This document shows, one piece after another, positions 9 to 40,919 of a stretch of DNA of 40,919 bases. Below the pieces are notes generated by a model, which worked only from the letters and a program-made list of their open reading frames with translations, made no database searches and was not told the DNA's origin. A program made the position numbers and the translations under genes. This stretch comes from Demequina sp. (GTDB taxonomy: Bacteria; Actinomycetota; Actinomycetes; Actinomycetales; Demequinaceae), in contig JASBTB010000058.1 of the NCBI GenBank assembly GCA_030148645.1, positions 1-40,919 of the forward strand, in the 5' to 3' direction. Within the stretch, counting starts at the first letter, position 1; the number at the start of each line of letters is the position of its first letter.

Positions 9-1031
9 CTACCTGGACTGACCCGCTGCGGCAGCCTCAGCGGCGCACCCTTCACAAGGTGGCGGGCGACTCTCGCCGACGGCGGGAGGCTCAAGCGGTG
101 ACGCCGCGGACACACGGGCCGTCTGGGCCACCACAATGCCCGCGAAGACGACGACTGAGCCAGCCACCTGCAAGGCGGACAAGCTCTCATCGAGCCACAT
201 CCATGCGACGGCGAAAGCGAACAACACCTCCGACGAGGCGGCAATGCCCACCGTGGTGGCCGACGCGTGCTTGAGGGCGACAAAAAGTAGCCCGAATGGT
301 GCAAAACTGCCCAACGTCAGGATGTACGCCAGCGGAACCCACATGGGTGCGACCACCGCTTCAAGGGCACCGGTGAGAGATACCTCGGAGGTGAAGATGG
401 CAGGATCGATGGTCCACCACTCGGATAGGAACGCCCAAAAGCCCGAGGCGAAGATGGAGGCCCAGAACGCGACGGCAAGCGGGTGTTTCTTCGCCACTCG
501 ACGTTCGCCAGCCAGGAAGTAGAAGGCGAACGCGACCGCGGCGCCTAGGCCCGCGAGGATGCCAAGCGGACGCAAGTCCGAGTCCCACACCTGGGCGACA
601 ACGGCCAATCCGAGCAGCACCGCCGCGATCGCCCACCACAGGCGTGCGCCGATGCGCTCGCCAAAAACGAGCCATGCACTCAAAGCGACCAAGACGACCG
701 CCGTGTACTCGAACAGAAGTGCCACGCCCACCGGTAGCAGCGAGATGGCCACTGAATACAGCCACTGCACCATCGCGAGACCGCCGATTCCCAGCAGTGC
801 GAAACCCACCACATCGCGTCGCGTGACGGCGAAGTGCTGCCTGCCTGCGATGGCGAGCCATATGCCAGCAAGTGTCGCGGTAGCCATCACCCGCATGAGC
901 GTCACCTGCGCCGGGCTCAGACCCGCCTCGATCACGACCTTGGACACCGAGCCGTTCACCCCAAACAGCGCGGCCGCGACAAGGGCGTACATGGTGCCGC
1001 GAAGTGGGGAACGGATGTGGTCGAGCGGCAT
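9..1031 (-). CDS. EamA/DMT-family membrane transporter
   Basis: This is an integral membrane protein of about 340 residues with around ten hydrophobic helices arranged as two EamA repeats. The N-terminal repeat opens with a small-residue helix (ALVAAALFGVNGSVSKVV), and the C-terminal repeat includes ASSEVLFAFAVAWMWLDE, the typical pre-final-helix EamA signature. Family members export or import small metabolites; the substrate cannot be told. The hydrophilic tail after the last helix is rich in Pro, Glu and Ala and is probably cytoplasmic. A GTG at 1037 would add two residues. I prefer ATG at 1031 because a TACGAT -10 hexamer ends exactly 6 bases upstream, the same layout as five other genes here, and there is no Shine-Dalgarno sequence. 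It is transcribed away from the neighbouring gene at 1137. Confidence 0.85.
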   Translation of the reverse strand: MPLDHIRSPLRGTMYALVAAALFGVNGSVSKVVIEAGLSPAQVTLMRVMATATLAGIWLAIAGRQHFAVTRRDVVGFALLGIGGLAMVQWLYSVAISLLPVGVALLFEYTAVVLVALSAWLVFGERIGARLWWAIAAVLLGLAVVAQVWDSDLRPLGILAGLGAAVAFAFYFLAGERRVAKKHPLAVAFWASIFASGFWAFLSEWWTIDPAIFTSEVSLTGALEAVVAPMWVPLAYILTLGSFAPFGLLFVALKHASATTVGIAASSEVLFAFAVAWMWLDESLSALQVAGSVVVFAGIVVAQTARVSAASPLEPPAVGESRPPPCEGCAAEAAAAGQSR

Positions 1032-36593: not shown

Positions 36594-38036
36594 TCAGGTG
36601 GCGCAACAGGACAGTTTGCTCACGTCCGTGCGAAAAGACTGTGCGGCAATCTTGATGCCTTCGGCCATGGTCAGGTAGGGGCACCACATGTTGGCGACCT
36701 GGTCTACCGTCATGTGGGCTTCCAGGATGTAGACCCCGGCTGCGGCGAGGTCGCCAGCCTCCTGTGCGACGGCGGTGATGCCGACGATACGGCCAGTCGT
36801 GGCGTCTGCGACGATCTTGATGAATCCGCGGGTGTCCCGGTTCACGAGCGCCCGCGGAACATAGTCGAGGGGCAGGACTCGGCACACGCAGCGGATACCG
36901 GCCGCGTTGGCTTCTTCGTCGGTCATTCCCACCGCCGCCATGGCGGGACTGGTGAAAGTCACCCGGGGCAGGTGCCGGTAGTCGACCTCCCGCCCGGCGT
37001 CGTTGAACGCGTTGTCGACCATGATCGACCCGTGCGCCCCGGCCACGTACACGAACTGTGGGTGCCCCGTCACGTCGCCCGCCGCCCAGATGCGAGGATT
37101 GGAACTGGCAAGTCGGTTGTCGACGACCACCTCACCGCGGTCGCCAACCTGGACGCCTACCGCCTCCAGATTCAGTCCCGTGGTGACGGGTCGCCGACCC
37201 GTGGCCACGAGGAATTTGGTCGCCCGGAACTCCTCATTGCCGCCGGACACGGTGGCGGTGGCGATGACGTCACCGCTTTGCGCCTCCGTTCGCACGGAGG
37301 TCACCGTTGCGCGGCGCACCACCCGGATACCCTCGTCGGCGAAGACCCCGGAAAGCGCACGGGACGCCTCGGGCTCTTCATGCGACGCGAGTCGTGAACG
37401 GACAAGAAGAGTCACCTTCGATCCGAGGCGGGCGAACAGTTGAGCCTGCTCCAGCGCCACATATCCGCCGCCGAACACGATCAACGATTCGGGCACCGCG
37501 TCCAACTCCATCGCCGTGGTGGACGTCAGGTAATCCACCGCTTCGAGTCCCTCCACGGGAGGCGCCCAGGGACGGGACCCGGTGGCAACAAGATAGTGAG
37601 CGGCTCGCACGGAGGAACGGCTTGCGTCCTGTCCGGAGATTTCCAGGACCGGGTCCGCGGCAGTGCCGACGAAGGCGGCGGTGCCCTGGCGCAAGTCCCA
37701 CCCGTACTCCCCGATCAGGTCGACGTACTTGTCGGCACGCAAGCCTTCTACCAGGGAACGCTTGCCCTCGATCAACGCCCTCATGTCCACGGGGTCTGCG
37801 GCGGTCGAAATACCGGGGAACCTCCCGGAGTCCAGGGCCACGTGCCGGGCCTGCGCTGCGGCAAGGAGCGCTTTGGAGGGCACGCATCCGGTGTTGACAC
37901 ACGTCCCACCGATGGTGGAGCGTTCCACCATCAGCACCCGCTTTCCCAGGTTGGTCGCCCGGATTGCGGCTGCGAAGGCCCCGCCCCCCGAACCGATGAC
38001 GGCAAGGTCGTAGTCGGATGCTGTTGGTTCAGGCAT
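36594..38036 (-). CDS. merA: Mercuric reductase
   Basis: The protein has 480 residues. This flavoprotein reduces Hg(II) to volatile Hg(0) with NADPH. The FAD-binding start is DYDLAVIGSGGGAFAAAIRA, the redox pair is C46/C51 in GGTCVNTGCVPSK, an NADPH-binding GGGYVALEQAQ turn follows near residue 200, and the second FAD motif is IWAAGDVTG near 330. The C-terminal mercury-delivering pair C477-C478 in KLSCCAT is present, which identifies MerA over other pyridine-nucleotide disulfide reductases. The N-terminal HMA-type (NmerA) domain of many MerA proteins is absent. GGAGGA before the ATG supports the start. It is the first gene of the operon, with a MerR-type operator about 60-90 bases upstream. 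Confidence 0.95.
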   Translation of the reverse strand: MPEPTASDYDLAVIGSGGGAFAAAIRATNLGKRVLMVERSTIGGTCVNTGCVPSKALLAAAQARHVALDSGRFPGISTAADPVDMRALIEGKRSLVEGLRADKYVDLIGEYGWDLRQGTAAFVGTAADPVLEISGQDASRSSVRAAHYLVATGSRPWAPPVEGLEAVDYLTSTTAMELDAVPESLIVFGGGYVALEQAQLFARLGSKVTLLVRSRLASHEEPEASRALSGVFADEGIRVVRRATVTSVRTEAQSGDVIATATVSGGNEEFRATKFLVATGRRPVTTGLNLEAVGVQVGDRGEVVVDNRLASSNPRIWAAGDVTGHPQFVYVAGAHGSIMVDNAFNDAGREVDYRHLPRVTFTSPAMAAVGMTDEEANAAGIRCVCRVLPLDYVPRALVNRDTRGFIKIVADATTGRIVGITAVAQEAGDLAAAGVYILEAHMTVDQVANMWCPYLTMAEGIKIAAQSFRTDVSKLSCCAT

Positions 38037-38099
38037 GATTCCTCCGAAGTCGTGTCGCAGACGGGGCCACACAGCCCCGCCAGTGTCTTTGGCTCAGTA

Positions 38100-38127
38100 T
38101 TGACCTTCTCCCATAGGACAAGGTCAA
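38100..38127 (-). promoter_or_regulatory. MerR-family-type operator/promoter of the merAB operon
   Basis: TTGACCTT (38100-38107) and AAGGTCAA (38120-38127) form a perfect 8-bp dyad with a 12-base centre. Read on the minus strand it gives a -35 TTGACC, a 20-base spacer and a -10-like AATACT (38101-38096), the over-long spacer used by MerR, CueR and ZntR-type activators. The half-sites resemble the copA operator of CueR. The start would lie about 50 bases before merA. Confidence 0.65.
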
Positions 38128-38400
38128 GCGGCGGTGTGTCACTGCGTGGTGATGCGTCGTTGAGCCTGCAGGCACCGCCGGACCCTTCGTGCGGTGGGGG
38201 TGGCGTCCGATGCGACGCTTGGACTGGCAGACCCGACGAGGTGGTCGGTGCGTTGCGGTCCACGTCGGCAACAGCCAGGGGGCAACAACCATGCGGCAAC
38301 CGGCGCCACTGCGCCCCCGCGCCTCGTGCAGGTCCGTTGCGTGATCAGACTGGGACACTCGCACTCGAAAGCCTGCCGCAGAACAGGGTTTCGCAGTGTT
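38128..38400. other. Non-coding interval between the mer operator and the tRNA fragment
   Basis: These 273 bases show no convincing gene on either strand. In particular I find no MerR helix-turn-helix or C-terminal cysteine pattern, intact or broken, although a regulator would be expected here. Confidence 0.5.
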
Positions 38401-38420
38401 CACCAGGGCCTTTCCTGGTG
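38401..38420 (-). terminator. Hairpin following the tRNA 3' end
   Basis: CACCAGG (38401-38407) and CCTGGTG (38414-38420) pair perfectly around six bases. On the minus strand the left arm uses the terminal CACCA of the tRNA fragment, so this looks like the original tRNA terminator. Confidence 0.5.
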
Positions 38421-38448
38421 GGCGATACTGGGATCGAACCAGTGACCT
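38416..38448 (-). other. 3' part of a tRNA gene, attachment site of the integrative element
   Basis: Read on the minus strand: variable loop AGGTC (38448-38444), a T-stem ACTGG/CCAGT with loop TTCGATC (38443-38427), acceptor 3' strand ATCGCCC (38426-38420), then ACCA (38419-38416). The anticodon arm, D-arm and 5' acceptor strand (expected GGGCGAT) are missing; the sequence changes abruptly upstream at 38449. The fragment resembles actinobacterial tRNA-Val(CAC), though that identity is from memory. This is the pattern left when an element integrates into a tRNA 3' end: one border keeps only the 3' part, with the integrase beside it. Confidence 0.7.
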
Positions 38449-38471
38449 GGCCATGACCGCCACACTGTCTT

Positions 38472-38500
38472 TACCTCGGTGTTTCCTCGTAGTACCTCGG
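38472..38500 (+). repeat. Phased direct repeats near the attachment site
   Basis: TACCTCGG at 38472 and 38493, with the related TTCCTCGT at 38483 between them, so the starts are 11 and 10 bases apart. Such helically phased sites are typical of integrase arm or excisionase binding regions. Confidence 0.55.
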
Positions 38501-38519
38501 ATAATGTTCACAGTAGCGC

Positions 38520-38556
38520 GTGTCACGACTGGACACAAGTGGACACGCCTGTACCC
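38520..38556 (+). repeat. Four heptamers at exact 10-base spacing upstream of int
   Basis: GTGTCAC (38520), TGGACAC (38530), TGGACAC (38540) and TGTACCC (38550) stand one helical turn apart, the middle two identical. They lie between the tRNA fragment and the integrase gene, just before a TATATT hexamer at 38558. Confidence 0.6.
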
Positions 38557-38557
38557 T

Positions 38558-38563
38558 TATATT
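38558..38563 (+). promoter_or_regulatory. Candidate -10 element for the integrase gene
   Basis: TATATT, 28 bases before the GTG. A -35 at standard spacing is not evident, and the region upstream is occupied by the phased heptamers, so activation or repression by a protein bound there is likely. Confidence 0.4.
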
Positions 38564-38591
38564 GCACGCAGGGTGCACGAGCGGAGGAAAC

Positions 38592-39719
38592 GTGACGCGA
38601 TCACGGCGGGGATGGGGCGCTATACGCAAGCTCCCAAGCGGCAACTATCAGGCGTCCTACCAAGGGCCGGACATGCAACGCCACGTTGCGCCCACCACGT
38701 TTCAAGACAAGGACGCCGCGACCGTATGGCTCACGAATCAGCGCAGGGCGGTCGAGGATGGCACGTGGAGCCCCCGCACCGCAGACGGGGCGCACCAGCG
38801 TCGCAAGACGGTTGCGGACGCGTTCGAGGCCTACCTGACACGTCCACGACGGCGCGACCTGAAACCGCGCACCGAGGCCCATTACCGCGAACTGTTCGCC
38901 CGTTTCATCAACCCCTCATTCGGTGATACCGCCGTAGCGGGCGTGATGGTCGAGGACGTAAACGCCTGGTACACGGATCGCACGCTATGGCGCAAGAAAG
39001 ACGGATCGATCATGCGCACCTACCGGGCACACGCATACCAACTCCTGTCGTCGGTCCTGGGCTACTCACTGCCGAGTGGTGCCGTGAACCCCTGCCAGAT
39101 CGAACACGCCGGGACCGTGGACACTGAACGCGAGATCAGGCCCGCGACACTTGACGAACTCACCACCATGACCGCCGCCATGCCTGACAGGTACGCCGCC
39201 ATGATCCCGCTCACGGCCTGGTGTGCGCTGCGGTTCGGGGAAGTCGCGGAACTACGCCGCAAAGACCTCGACCTCACCGCTGGGCTAGTCCGGGTGAGTC
39301 GCGGCGTGACTCGCGTAGGGAAGCAAACCTACATCGGCACACCGAAAGCGGAGAGCAAGCGGAAGGTCAATATCCCCCCGCACCTGATGCCCATGATCAA
39401 AGACCACCTACGCGACCACGTGGGGCGCGCTGACACGGCCCTACTGTTCCCGGCGGCATCGGGCGGCAACCTTGCCCCCTCGACCCTGTACCGCCATTTC
39501 TATAAGGCGAGAGACGCCGCAGGCAGGCCGGACCTTCACTGGCACGATTTGAGACACACAGGGGCGACACTGGCGGCACGGGCAGGCGCAACGCTCACCG
39601 AGCAAATGGCACGCCTGGGGCACAAGACACCGCAAATGGCGATCCGTTATCAGCACGCCGCCGCCGACCGTGACAAGGTGATCGCGGCGGCGCTGTCGGG
39701 GCTTGCGAGGGGCGCTTGA
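38592..39719 (+). CDS. int: Tyrosine recombinase/integrase
   Basis: The protein has 375 residues. It begins with an AP2-like or arm-binding N-terminal segment (RRGWGAIRKLPSGNYQASYQG), a core-binding domain near 70-170 (FEAYLTRPRRRDLKPRTEAHYRELFARFINP), and a catalytic domain whose residues are all visible: R214 in ALRFGE, a Lys at about 252 in GTPKAESKRK, H318 and R321 in HDLRHTG, H344 in LGHKT and Y353 in IRYQHA. It would integrate and excise the element at the tRNA site 150 bases upstream. I start it at GTG 38592 because GGAGGA lies 3 to 8 bases before it; a longer frame reaches 38520 but would run through the phased repeats. The stop overlaps the next start by one base (TGATG). Confidence 0.93.
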   Translation: MTRSRRGWGAIRKLPSGNYQASYQGPDMQRHVAPTTFQDKDAATVWLTNQRRAVEDGTWSPRTADGAHQRRKTVADAFEAYLTRPRRRDLKPRTEAHYRELFARFINPSFGDTAVAGVMVEDVNAWYTDRTLWRKKDGSIMRTYRAHAYQLLSSVLGYSLPSGAVNPCQIEHAGTVDTEREIRPATLDELTTMTAAMPDRYAAMIPLTAWCALRFGEVAELRRKDLDLTAGLVRVSRGVTRVGKQTYIGTPKAESKRKVNIPPHLMPMIKDHLRDHVGRADTALLFPAASGGNLAPSTLYRHFYKARDAAGRPDLHWHDLRHTGATLAARAGATLTEQMARLGHKTPQMAIRYQHAAADRDKVIAAALSGLARGA

Positions 39720-40372
39720 TGGACATCTTCGGCTTGCCGGACGACCAGGTGCGCGCAATTCTGCATACGCCAGAAGGTGCAACCGCACTGTGGCACTCCG
39801 ATGAGATGCCTGCCGTCATTGTTCGTTGTCCGGAGAGGCACACGCTGGCACGCGTCTATACGGTTCTCGGCACGGCGTATCTCGTCGTGGGCCAGACGAC
39901 CGTGATGCAGAGCTGGCGCACAGGCCTATGGGGCCAGCCGCATGGCCCGCGCACATGGGACTTGGGTAGGCCTGGCCTCAACGACGACGACTGGGAGGAA
40001 GTGCGCTGCCATTGTCGGGGTTGGACGATCCCGCTTGGCTACGTATATGAGTCGTGGTCGAAAGGTGAGAAGGAGTTCATTCTCGACCAGGAGGATGCCC
40101 ATGTCCCAGGCGACGATTTCGATGCCGCCATATCCACTGTGCGGAGTTACGTGGAGTGGGCTGGGAGCGCATGGGATGATCACTACGACCCCGACCGGGG
40201 ACCGGATTACGAGGCAGACAGTGCCCGCGAAGAACTCTCGGCATTGCTCGCGACACTTGACGAGGGTGTGCGAACGCGTGGCGAGATCGAGGCGATAGAG
40301 ACGCGGGCGAGAACGATCGCGGACACCTACATCAACTGGGACCACGCCCGCGATATGTGGTTGGACAGGTAG
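39719..40372 (+). CDS. Unknown protein encoded after the integrase, possible zinc-binding
   Basis: The protein has 217 residues and matches no family that I recognise. The first half has a Cys/His pattern (C37 and H41 in RCPERH; C97 and C99 in RCHCRGW) that could form a zinc ribbon. The second half is acidic, with many Asp and Glu (DHYDPDRGPDYEADSAREEL), and ends in long helices (LLATLDEGVRTRGEIEAIETRARTIADTYI). No membrane segment or signal peptide is seen. The ATG overlaps the integrase stop, so the two are translated together, which suggests a role in control or movement of the element. An excisionase-like gene follows after 125 bases. Confidence 0.65.
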   Translation: MDIFGLPDDQVRAILHTPEGATALWHSDEMPAVIVRCPERHTLARVYTVLGTAYLVVGQTTVMQSWRTGLWGQPHGPRTWDLGRPGLNDDDWEEVRCHCRGWTIPLGYVYESWSKGEKEFILDQEDAHVPGDDFDAAISTVRSYVEWAGSAWDDHYDPDRGPDYEADSAREELSALLATLDEGVRTRGEIEAIETRARTIADTYINWDHARDMWLDR

Positions 40373-40413
40373 GGCGCGGCGCAGCGACACGCCTGGTCAC
40401 TTGACACCATTGC

Positions 40414-40419
40414 TAGACT
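40414..40419 (+). promoter_or_regulatory. Candidate -10 element for the excisionase-like gene
   Basis: TAGACT, with TTGACA at 40401-40406 nearby but too close (7 bases) to serve as its -35; TTGACA could instead pair with TAGCCC at 40425, 18 bases on. Either would give a leader of about 60-75 bases. Confidence 0.3.
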
Positions 40420-40497
40420 TTTTGTAGCCCGATGCACTGCGTCGAAGATCGTTCCGTGAAGTGGGCAGCACGCGATTCCTGACAAGGGGACGCGAGT

Positions 40498-40797
40498 ATG
40501 CCCACATCCGCCAAATATGGCGGCGTTCACGATGCCGCCACAATCCTCCAATGCTCTGACAAGACGGTGCGCCGCCTCGTCGCCGAGGGCGCAATCCCCG
40601 CATACAGAATGCCGGGAAAGTCACGCCTAATCCGCATTCGCCTCGACGAGCTCGAAGCATCGTTGCGCCTAATTCCCTCCGGCGCGGTGTCCAGCCGTGC
40701 GGTCGCGATGTCCGCAGACCTAGGGGTCAACGTCGCCGCCCAGGTGCTCGACGTGCATCATGAACGTGCCCGCATTGGGGCGGGTGCTACACCATGA
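40498..40797 (+). CDS. MerR/excisionase-type helix-turn-helix protein
   Basis: The protein has 99 residues. A winged helix-turn-helix of the DNA-binding excisionase type occupies about residues 9-55: GGVHDAATILQCSDKTVRRLVAEGAIPAYRMPGKSRLIRIRLDELEASL, with the AYRMPG-R-x-x-IR wing typical of this family. It is the expected partner of the tyrosine integrase, directing excision or regulating element genes. The C-terminal 40 residues are not recognised. AAGGGG about 8 bases before the ATG supports the start. The stop overlaps the next start by four bases (ATGA). Confidence 0.82.
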   Translation: MPTSAKYGGVHDAATILQCSDKTVRRLVAEGAIPAYRMPGKSRLIRIRLDELEASLRLIPSGAVSSRAVAMSADLGVNVAAQVLDVHHERARIGAGATP

Positions 40798-40919
40798 ACG
40801 ACCCCAGAAACGCCGCCGCCCCCGGCTGGGAAACCGAGGGCGAGGCGAAAACTCAGCAGGGCCACGCTGACACTCTCATCGTACCGTCCGACCCCGGGAA
40901 GCGCCAGGACGCGCCAGGC
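40794..40919 (+). CDS. Start of an element gene, cut by the window edge
   Basis: An ATG inside the previous gene's stop (ATGA overlap) opens a frame of 42 codons that runs to the end without a stop. The visible residues (MNDPRNAAAPGWETEGEA, then KTQQGHADTLIVPSDPGK) are hydrophilic and probably unstructured, so no domain can be named. By position it may encode a replication or primase-type protein, as in many actinobacterial elements, but nothing in the sequence shows that. Confidence 0.5.
   Translation, partial: MNDPRNAAAPGWETEGEAKTQQGHADTLIVPSDPGKRQDAPG

Follow-up and report, generated by a model that had tools for sequence, protein, structure and literature searches.

Here, the right-hand end of a 40,919-nucleotide stretch of Demequina sp. 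DNA was analyzed. The stretch, referred to as the window, is the entire contig JASBTB010000058.1 (C53) of the actinobacterial assembly GCA_030148645.1, which comprises 2.21 Mb in 152 contigs. Positions 38416-40919 are interpreted, with a probability of about 0.93, as the left end of an integrative element that entered the chromosome at the 3' end of a tRNA-Val gene, most likely Val(GAC), through integrase recombination. The features of this region are as follows.

38416..38448, minus strand: displaced 3' fragment of a tRNA-Val gene (T-arm, 3' acceptor strand and CCA), att core and left border, assigned by its identity to the tRNA-Val ends of the genus
38472..38500, plus strand: two TACCTCGG direct repeats 21 nt apart, candidate arm-type sites, the pair being unique in the window
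38592..39719, plus strand: tyrosine integrase of 375 aa with a GTG start and the ribosome-binding site GGAGGA (PF00589, 3.2e-19; phrog_1 integrase, 6.2e-49)
39719..40372, plus strand: open reading frame 2 (ORF2), an orphan of 217 aa with a CPxxH...CxC pattern, its counterpart in the element on contig C69 of the same assembly being only distant
40498..40797, plus strand: excisionase-type helix-turn-helix (HTH) protein of 99 aa (HTH_17, 4.9e-11; TIGR01764, 1e-9, over its cut-off)
40794..40919, plus strand: start of ORF4, cut by the contig end and common to the elements on contigs C69 and C102

A first-pass annotation of this DNA had placed a truncated tRNA 3' end at the left border, and this was confirmed by an exact match to tRNA-Val ends of the genus, with no intact tRNA found in the window. 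The bases at 38416-38448 agree with the Val(CAC) gene of genome G003 at 33/33 positions and with its Val(GAC) gene at 97%. When the 32-base pattern at 38416-38447 was searched with up to 3 mismatches, 2 occurrences were obtained in the present assembly, both exact, the second at C111:28120-28151, while the reversed control gave 0. The same pattern was present in 44 of 44 genus genomes, a total which counts the present assembly, as does the total of 149 genomes given below for integrase matches. Thirty loci from the pattern search and 3 from a search with a flanking gene were submitted to ARAGORN, and a tRNA-Val (GAC or CAC) ended at the match in 29 of the 30. An Rfam search of 38000-40919 with E up to 1 yielded no match. 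Regarding the terminator that had been assigned to the fragment, no support was obtained. A 7-bp hairpin abuts the CCA end, but it lacks a T-run and does not fold better than shuffled sequence (z of -1.16, 25 of 200 shuffles equal or better), and the only site from a terminator scan of the tRNA's strand, at 38309-38293, about 107 bases further downstream, is attributed to chance since shuffles give 0.3 +/- 0.7. The remaining one of the 30 loci, L061 (genome G002), holds at 1501-1542 only a tRNA-Val 3' fragment of about 42 bases, perhaps the scar of a lost element.

The gene content proposed by the annotation largely stands. The integrase is recognized from its PF00589 match and from its residues, of which R214, K252, H318-x-x-R321, H344 and Y353, which we take to be the catalytic residues, are present and invariant across 5 aligned sequences. 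Its frame is open from GTG 38520, and the GTG at 38592, 143 bases from the tRNA fragment, is the likeliest start. The gene of unknown function expected behind it is ORF2, for which no match was found in Pfam, PHROGs or NCBIfam. The excisionase-type gene is upheld by TIGR01764, and the start of a further gene is seen in ORF4, which opens at 40794. The coupling of all these genes by overlaps is true of integrase and ORF2 (TGATG) and of excisionase and ORF4 (ATGA), but not of ORF2 and the excisionase gene, which are 125 bases apart. The description of the DNA as foreign-looking is mildly true: the GC content of the element part is 63.2%, compared with 66.0 +/- 0.9% in windows of equal size from the left 38 kb, the lowest of which has 63.4%.

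It can be observed that the same border recurs within the assembly. A sibling on contig C111 (C111:28120-29248, equal to L004:10121-11249) is 93.3% identical over 1129 bp, up to the contig end, and its integrase shares 95% identity in protein with that of the window versus 93% in DNA. The chromosomal position of both borders was examined with 8 genus stretches of 10-19 kb each, compared with C53 and C111. Seven of the 8 have a pair of tRNA-Val genes (or a small array) that are encoded on opposite strands and point their 3' ends away from each other, at a spacing of 2.4-2.5 kb in G001, G003, G009 and G043 and of 4.0-6.6 kb in G015, G026 and G031; on the short contig G018, the eighth stretch, one of the two is present. 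One Val gene adjoins tRNA-Gly in 7/7 and tRNA-Cys in 6/7 and has the anticodon GAC in 6/7, and on this Gly/Cys side genes matching C53 at 24-35 kb are found in 6/7 stretches. The other Val gene faces thrS and its neighbours, which match C111 up to 21.2 kb, in 8/8 stretches, G018 included, and is Val(CAC) in 7/8. The C111 sibling sits on this thrS side. Because the flanks are syntenic with the Gly/Cys side and the thrS side, respectively, the window fragment most likely derives from Val(GAC) and the C111 fragment from Val(CAC). About 7 kb with glycerol genes separates thrS from the fragment on C111 and has no match in the stretches of the relatives. In G009 (L105:7830-10278), each tRNA-Val gene has the anticodon that the other bears in the remaining genus stretches, and the neighbours keep their usual place; inversion of the whole segment between the Val genes was considered for this genome and rejected, as the Cys-Gly genes remain on the usual side despite the swapped anticodons.

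Relatives in other genomes provide a view of both borders and bear out what the annotation had predicted for the window copy, namely an intact tRNA gene on the minus strand at the far end. Integrase matches at 1e-30 or better were obtained in 30 of 149 genomes, and 8 relatives were fetched, 2 from the genus and 6 from the order. Five of the 8 have a repeat of 22-29 bases, one copy of which is beside the integrase gene and the other at an intact tRNA on the minus strand (Asn, Gln, Asn, Arg and Pro), with the borders separated by 10.0-16.4 kb. For G134, the exact repeat of greatest length is just beside the tRNA. No border with repeat and tRNA was found for G137, G109 and G074 in the stretch taken. 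Furthermore, 235 integrase relatives were confirmed in a set of named genomes, and the best 80 of the 235 were retained (the 80 named loci, in which G088 and L195 are one genome, L167 and L171 are one contig and some loci are near-copies). A tRNA 3' end (at least 20 of 25 bases) lies 60-360 bases before the integrase match in 72 of the 80, compared with 0/80 dinucleotide shuffles. The targets in these 72 loci are Val in 48, Pro in 13, Asn in 7, Arg in 3 and Trp in 1, the last being the self-match of a doubtful tRNA call. The far border was examined in the 31 loci with a tRNA away from the integrase, the remaining 49 being unsuited to this test, and in 29 of the 31 that tRNA is on the minus strand, on the right side, and shares 18-31 bases with the region upstream of the integrase. 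As a control, tRNAs of other loci share at least 18 bases in 5 of 67 cases, where it should be noted that many loci use the same tRNA. In a quick tree of 86 integrases (L217 was dropped for its short frame), with targets mapped for 78 rows, the tRNA targets are clustered, requiring 10 changes versus a shuffled mean of 26.2, with 0 of 200 shuffles as low. The integrases of the window and C111 stand apart together on a long branch.

Related elements are also recognized within the same genome. On contig C69 (L007:12522-18001 plus L008:1-4146), a primase-like gene and a tRNA-Asn 3' fragment are followed by an integrase 55% identical to that of the window, and the proteins of this element include DUF3631 (3.8e-58), WhiB (1.5e-12), a regulator and a terminase small subunit (phrog_1496, 4e-19). 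Contig C82 carries an intact tRNA-Asn gene; 81 bases behind it lies DNA that matches the far part of the C69 element at 90.5% identity over 127 bases, and C69 and C82 share an identical tRNA-Asn end of 26 bases. For this tRNA-Asn element an intact tRNA stands at the far border, in the way that the annotation had predicted for the window copy, with the borders on two contigs (C69, C82). Since the match falls short of full identity, the copy bordered by C82 may be another than that of C69. Moreover, the right end of C69 is not simply the C82 border, because its last 141 bases are the same as positions 1-141 of the window; this could be explained by two elements chained via common sequence or by a difference between strains. 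Positions 1-141 of the window hold the end of a transporter-like gene (9-1031, minus strand), and an element junction touches the left end of the window there. The element on contig C102 encodes AAA_25. In nucleotide identity, ORF4 of the window reaches 87% to C69 over 119 bases and 92% to C102 over 143, and it was found in 3 of 93 stretches searched, all 3 from the present genome. Since ORF4 is so similar in C102, though the integrase there is only distantly related, the modules of these elements are mosaic. Related elements occupy at least three other places in this genome, on C111, C69 and C102.

The fragment, the integrase, the synteny, the border of the sibling and both borders in the relatives form the observed basis of the interpretation, and the earlier proposal of an integrative element whose left border lies at a tRNA gene and which continues to the right agrees with them. 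In the mechanism envisaged, the integrase would recombine the attP site of the element with the tRNA-Val 3' end. The element's own copy of the tRNA 3' end would regenerate an intact minus-strand gene at the right, leaving the original 3' end at the left as the 33-base fragment. The integrase would bind a core in the tRNA end together with arm sites in the gap between att and the integrase gene, and the HTH protein is the likely excision factor. Restoration of the tRNA gene at one island end with the displaced fragment at the other is the Islander principle (PMC4383910). Here, a displaced tRNA fragment is found at one border, with an integrase gene inside the element beside it. The islands in tRNA and tmRNA genes catalogued in Islander have, as here, a tyrosine integrase and a displaced fragment, and a restored gene at the other end, which is predicted for the window copy; the two do not differ in principle, but only one end is visible in the window.

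Several points weigh against this interpretation. The right border of the window copy is absent from the assembly and cannot be seen because C53 ends at 40919, with no intact copy of the tRNA end. A DNA search of the assembly with the inter-Val stretch of G003 returned tRNA-like pieces only, although a diverged stretch could escape such a search. In G001, no C53 match was found on the expected side, and one match (58%, 188 aa, C53 26.7-27.3 kb) lies on the other. Eight of the 80 named loci are without a tRNA 3' end at the threshold, 6 of which have an intact plus-strand tRNA beside the integrase. On C102 (L232, 7880 bases), the more distant integrase is located beside an intact tmRNA gene, and the geometry differs. 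Several integrase relatives belong to elements which, by eye, have metal resistance, restriction, tail or capsid genes. With regard to class, the satellite assignment discussed below is drawn from one sibling (C69), the terminase match of which falls under the Pfam cut-off (PF05119, 17.8 vs 24.7 bits). Separately from these points, tRNA-Val(GAC), tRNA-Val(CAC), tRNA-Cys and tRNA-Gly(GCC) are not among the 34 tRNA genes found in the assembly. As tRNA-Cys is essential, this absence is best read as an assembly gap.

The 2.5 kb in the window are compatible with a satellite, an actinomycete integrative and conjugative element (AICE) or a prophage, and the content of C69 tips the balance toward a satellite. 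Phage satellites resembling phage-inducible chromosomal islands (PICI) are the likeliest family, because C69, the best preserved of the related elements, carries DUF3631 together with a terminase small subunit and no virion structural gene was recognized in the part seen; by analogy with this sibling, the window copy would share the satellite lifestyle. Among the features of PICI, integrase and excisionase are in the window, the size of 10.0-16.4 kb comes from the five relatives with two borders, and DUF3631 (C69), AAA_25 (C102) and the terminase (C69) lie outside the window. The PICI satellites treated in PMC10654092, candidate Mycobacterium PICI included, are alike in the tRNA site, the tyrosine integrase and the excisionase-type protein, to which C69 adds its DUF3631 gene and terminase small subunit. 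The Mycobacterium candidates were sought by integrase and capsid genes, whereas no capsid gene was recognized in the C69 element. That the border instead belongs to a complete prophage is considered unlikely. Temperate phages use integrases of the same family and the same tRNA sites: Mycobacterium phage integrases are 38% identical over 98% of the query, including that of phage Stagni at nearly full length, Stagni itself being a complete 50-kb phage genome, and tail-like and capsid-like genes are seen by eye in the stretches of G088, G137 and G078. However, the sole recognized virion-related gene in 9.6 kb of the C69 element is the terminase small subunit (some small ORFs were unscanned), and the two-border relatives span only 10.0-16.4 kb, which is short for a tailed phage.

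An AICE, with int, xis, rep and an FtsK-type translocase, or an integrated plasmid is similarly doubtful. According to PMC3218068, AICEs with tyrosine integrases mostly occupy tRNA 3' ends, the same kind of site as here, and related integrases tend toward the same tRNA, as on the present tree; plasmid pMR2 combines int, xis and rep with an FtsK-domain gene, and its integrase shares 37% identity. An FtsK-type transfer gene, expected of an AICE, was not recognized in the C69 element, ten proteins of which were scanned for an FtsK-type domain. There is a small chance that the locus is a dead scar, a decayed remnant with little left beyond the stretch from integrase to ORF4, as could be imagined from G002, in which a tRNA-Val 3' fragment has no match to the three integrases of the present genome within 2.7 kb. 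Against such decay, three frames are complete and a fourth is open to the contig end, the catalytic residues are kept, and the integrase is closer to its C111 copy in protein (95%) than in DNA (93%). The satellite-like element is presumably active. It is scarcely credible that a chimera or strain mixture joined the element to the chromosome during assembly: the assembly has 152 contigs, and the last 141 bases of C69 recur as the first 141 of C53, as in an assembly graph with k=141, but the border coincides precisely with a tRNA 3' end, its flank is the expected one, and C111, C69 and 72/80 named loci show this type of border as well.

Candidate arm sites were located in the gap between the fragment and the integrase. 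The TACCTCGG pair has a single occurrence in the window and 0 in 100 shuffles. A family motif, CTGACCTGCGGT, was examined in the loci where a tRNA end (at least 20 of 25 bases) precedes the integrase by less than 240 bases; these number 62 of the 80, L178 being left out. It is present in the gap of 48/62 loci, compared with 7 on the reverse strand, 1-8 in five shuffles and 3 inside the integrase gene, the weight matrix having been trained on the very gaps on which it was scored. At least two copies are found in 20/62 loci (controls 0-1), and 17 of 20 neighbouring pairs are 20-21 nt apart. At the right ends, 28 loci were scanned over the 250 bases that precede the intact tRNA, and CTGACCTGCGGT occurs in the same orientation in 17 and inverted in 13, figures without a control; in 14 of the 17, the copy starts 18-19 bases from the tRNA. 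Scores were obtained with this matrix for C69 and C102 and not for the window, C111 and G009. The TACCTCGG pair is perhaps a diverged form of CTGACCTGCGGT, and both repeats are read as probable integrase arm sites. Pairs of GGACA before the integrase were found in 8/72 loci, compared with 0-1 in mononucleotide shuffles and 4 on the reverse strand.

The element is an ordinary kind of tRNA-integrated mobile DNA, unusual only in that a sibling apparently sits in the second tRNA-Val gene. This apparent double occupation indicates that the 3' ends common to isoacceptor genes can offer one integrase two equal sites. A further, improbable idea is that one integrase lineage filled both divergent Val isoacceptor genes, 2.4-6.6 kb apart in the relatives, with mirror-image sibling satellites. 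The Cys/Gly piece would then be bracketed by identical inverted att cores and could be inverted or co-excised by the integrase, with ORF2 as part of the control; if so, the host would depend on the elements staying put. In a Thermococcus element, an integrase is known to drive inversion between att sites (PMC5495485). No report of elements in isoacceptor tRNA genes was found in a limited search of titles and abstract beginnings, and prior publication is possible. Here, an actinobacterial group of tRNA-integrated elements is added, several members of which are in one genome. Its anatomy is testable: the core lies in the tRNA end, the candidate arm sites are spaced by 20-21 nt, and integrase clades track tRNA identity.

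Finally, several minor observations were made. Pairwise comparison of ORF2 with ORF2 of C69 gave 28% identity over 103 aa (3e-7). No believable ORF2 match was found in 395 other genomes of the order, in a search which also overlooked the C69 counterpart, and distant relatives are possible. A weak match in G163 was rejected, the stretch having a stop codon and no integrase match nearby. The strict pattern C[PR]xxH...CxC was looked for in genes 1-3 kb past the integrase start and was present in 0/80 named loci. ORF2 and the integrase, each searched as a single protein in IMG/VR, gave 7 and 6 pattern matches, respectively, none of which was confirmed as a relative. The chromosomal left flank holds a further gene.

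36594..38036, minus strand: pyridine-nucleotide disulphide oxidoreductase (Pyr_redox_2, 2.3e-58; Pyr_redox_dim, 3.3e-26)

This gene was matched at E<=1e-100 in 4 of the 44 genus genomes, the present one included. The part of the flank at 27-35 kb, further left, shows synteny to the Gly/Cys side in 6 of 7 stretches from the genus. MT835972, a 14.4-kb "phage" record whose integrase gave the best match within the phage collection (43.5%), was rejected, as its genes appear by eye to be those of a bacterial chromosome beside tRNA-Lys. At L045 (G078), 3.4-13.4 kb, a 10-kb tRNA-Arg element was observed with terminase-, portal- and capsid-like genes (by eye), possibly a capsid-forming satellite.

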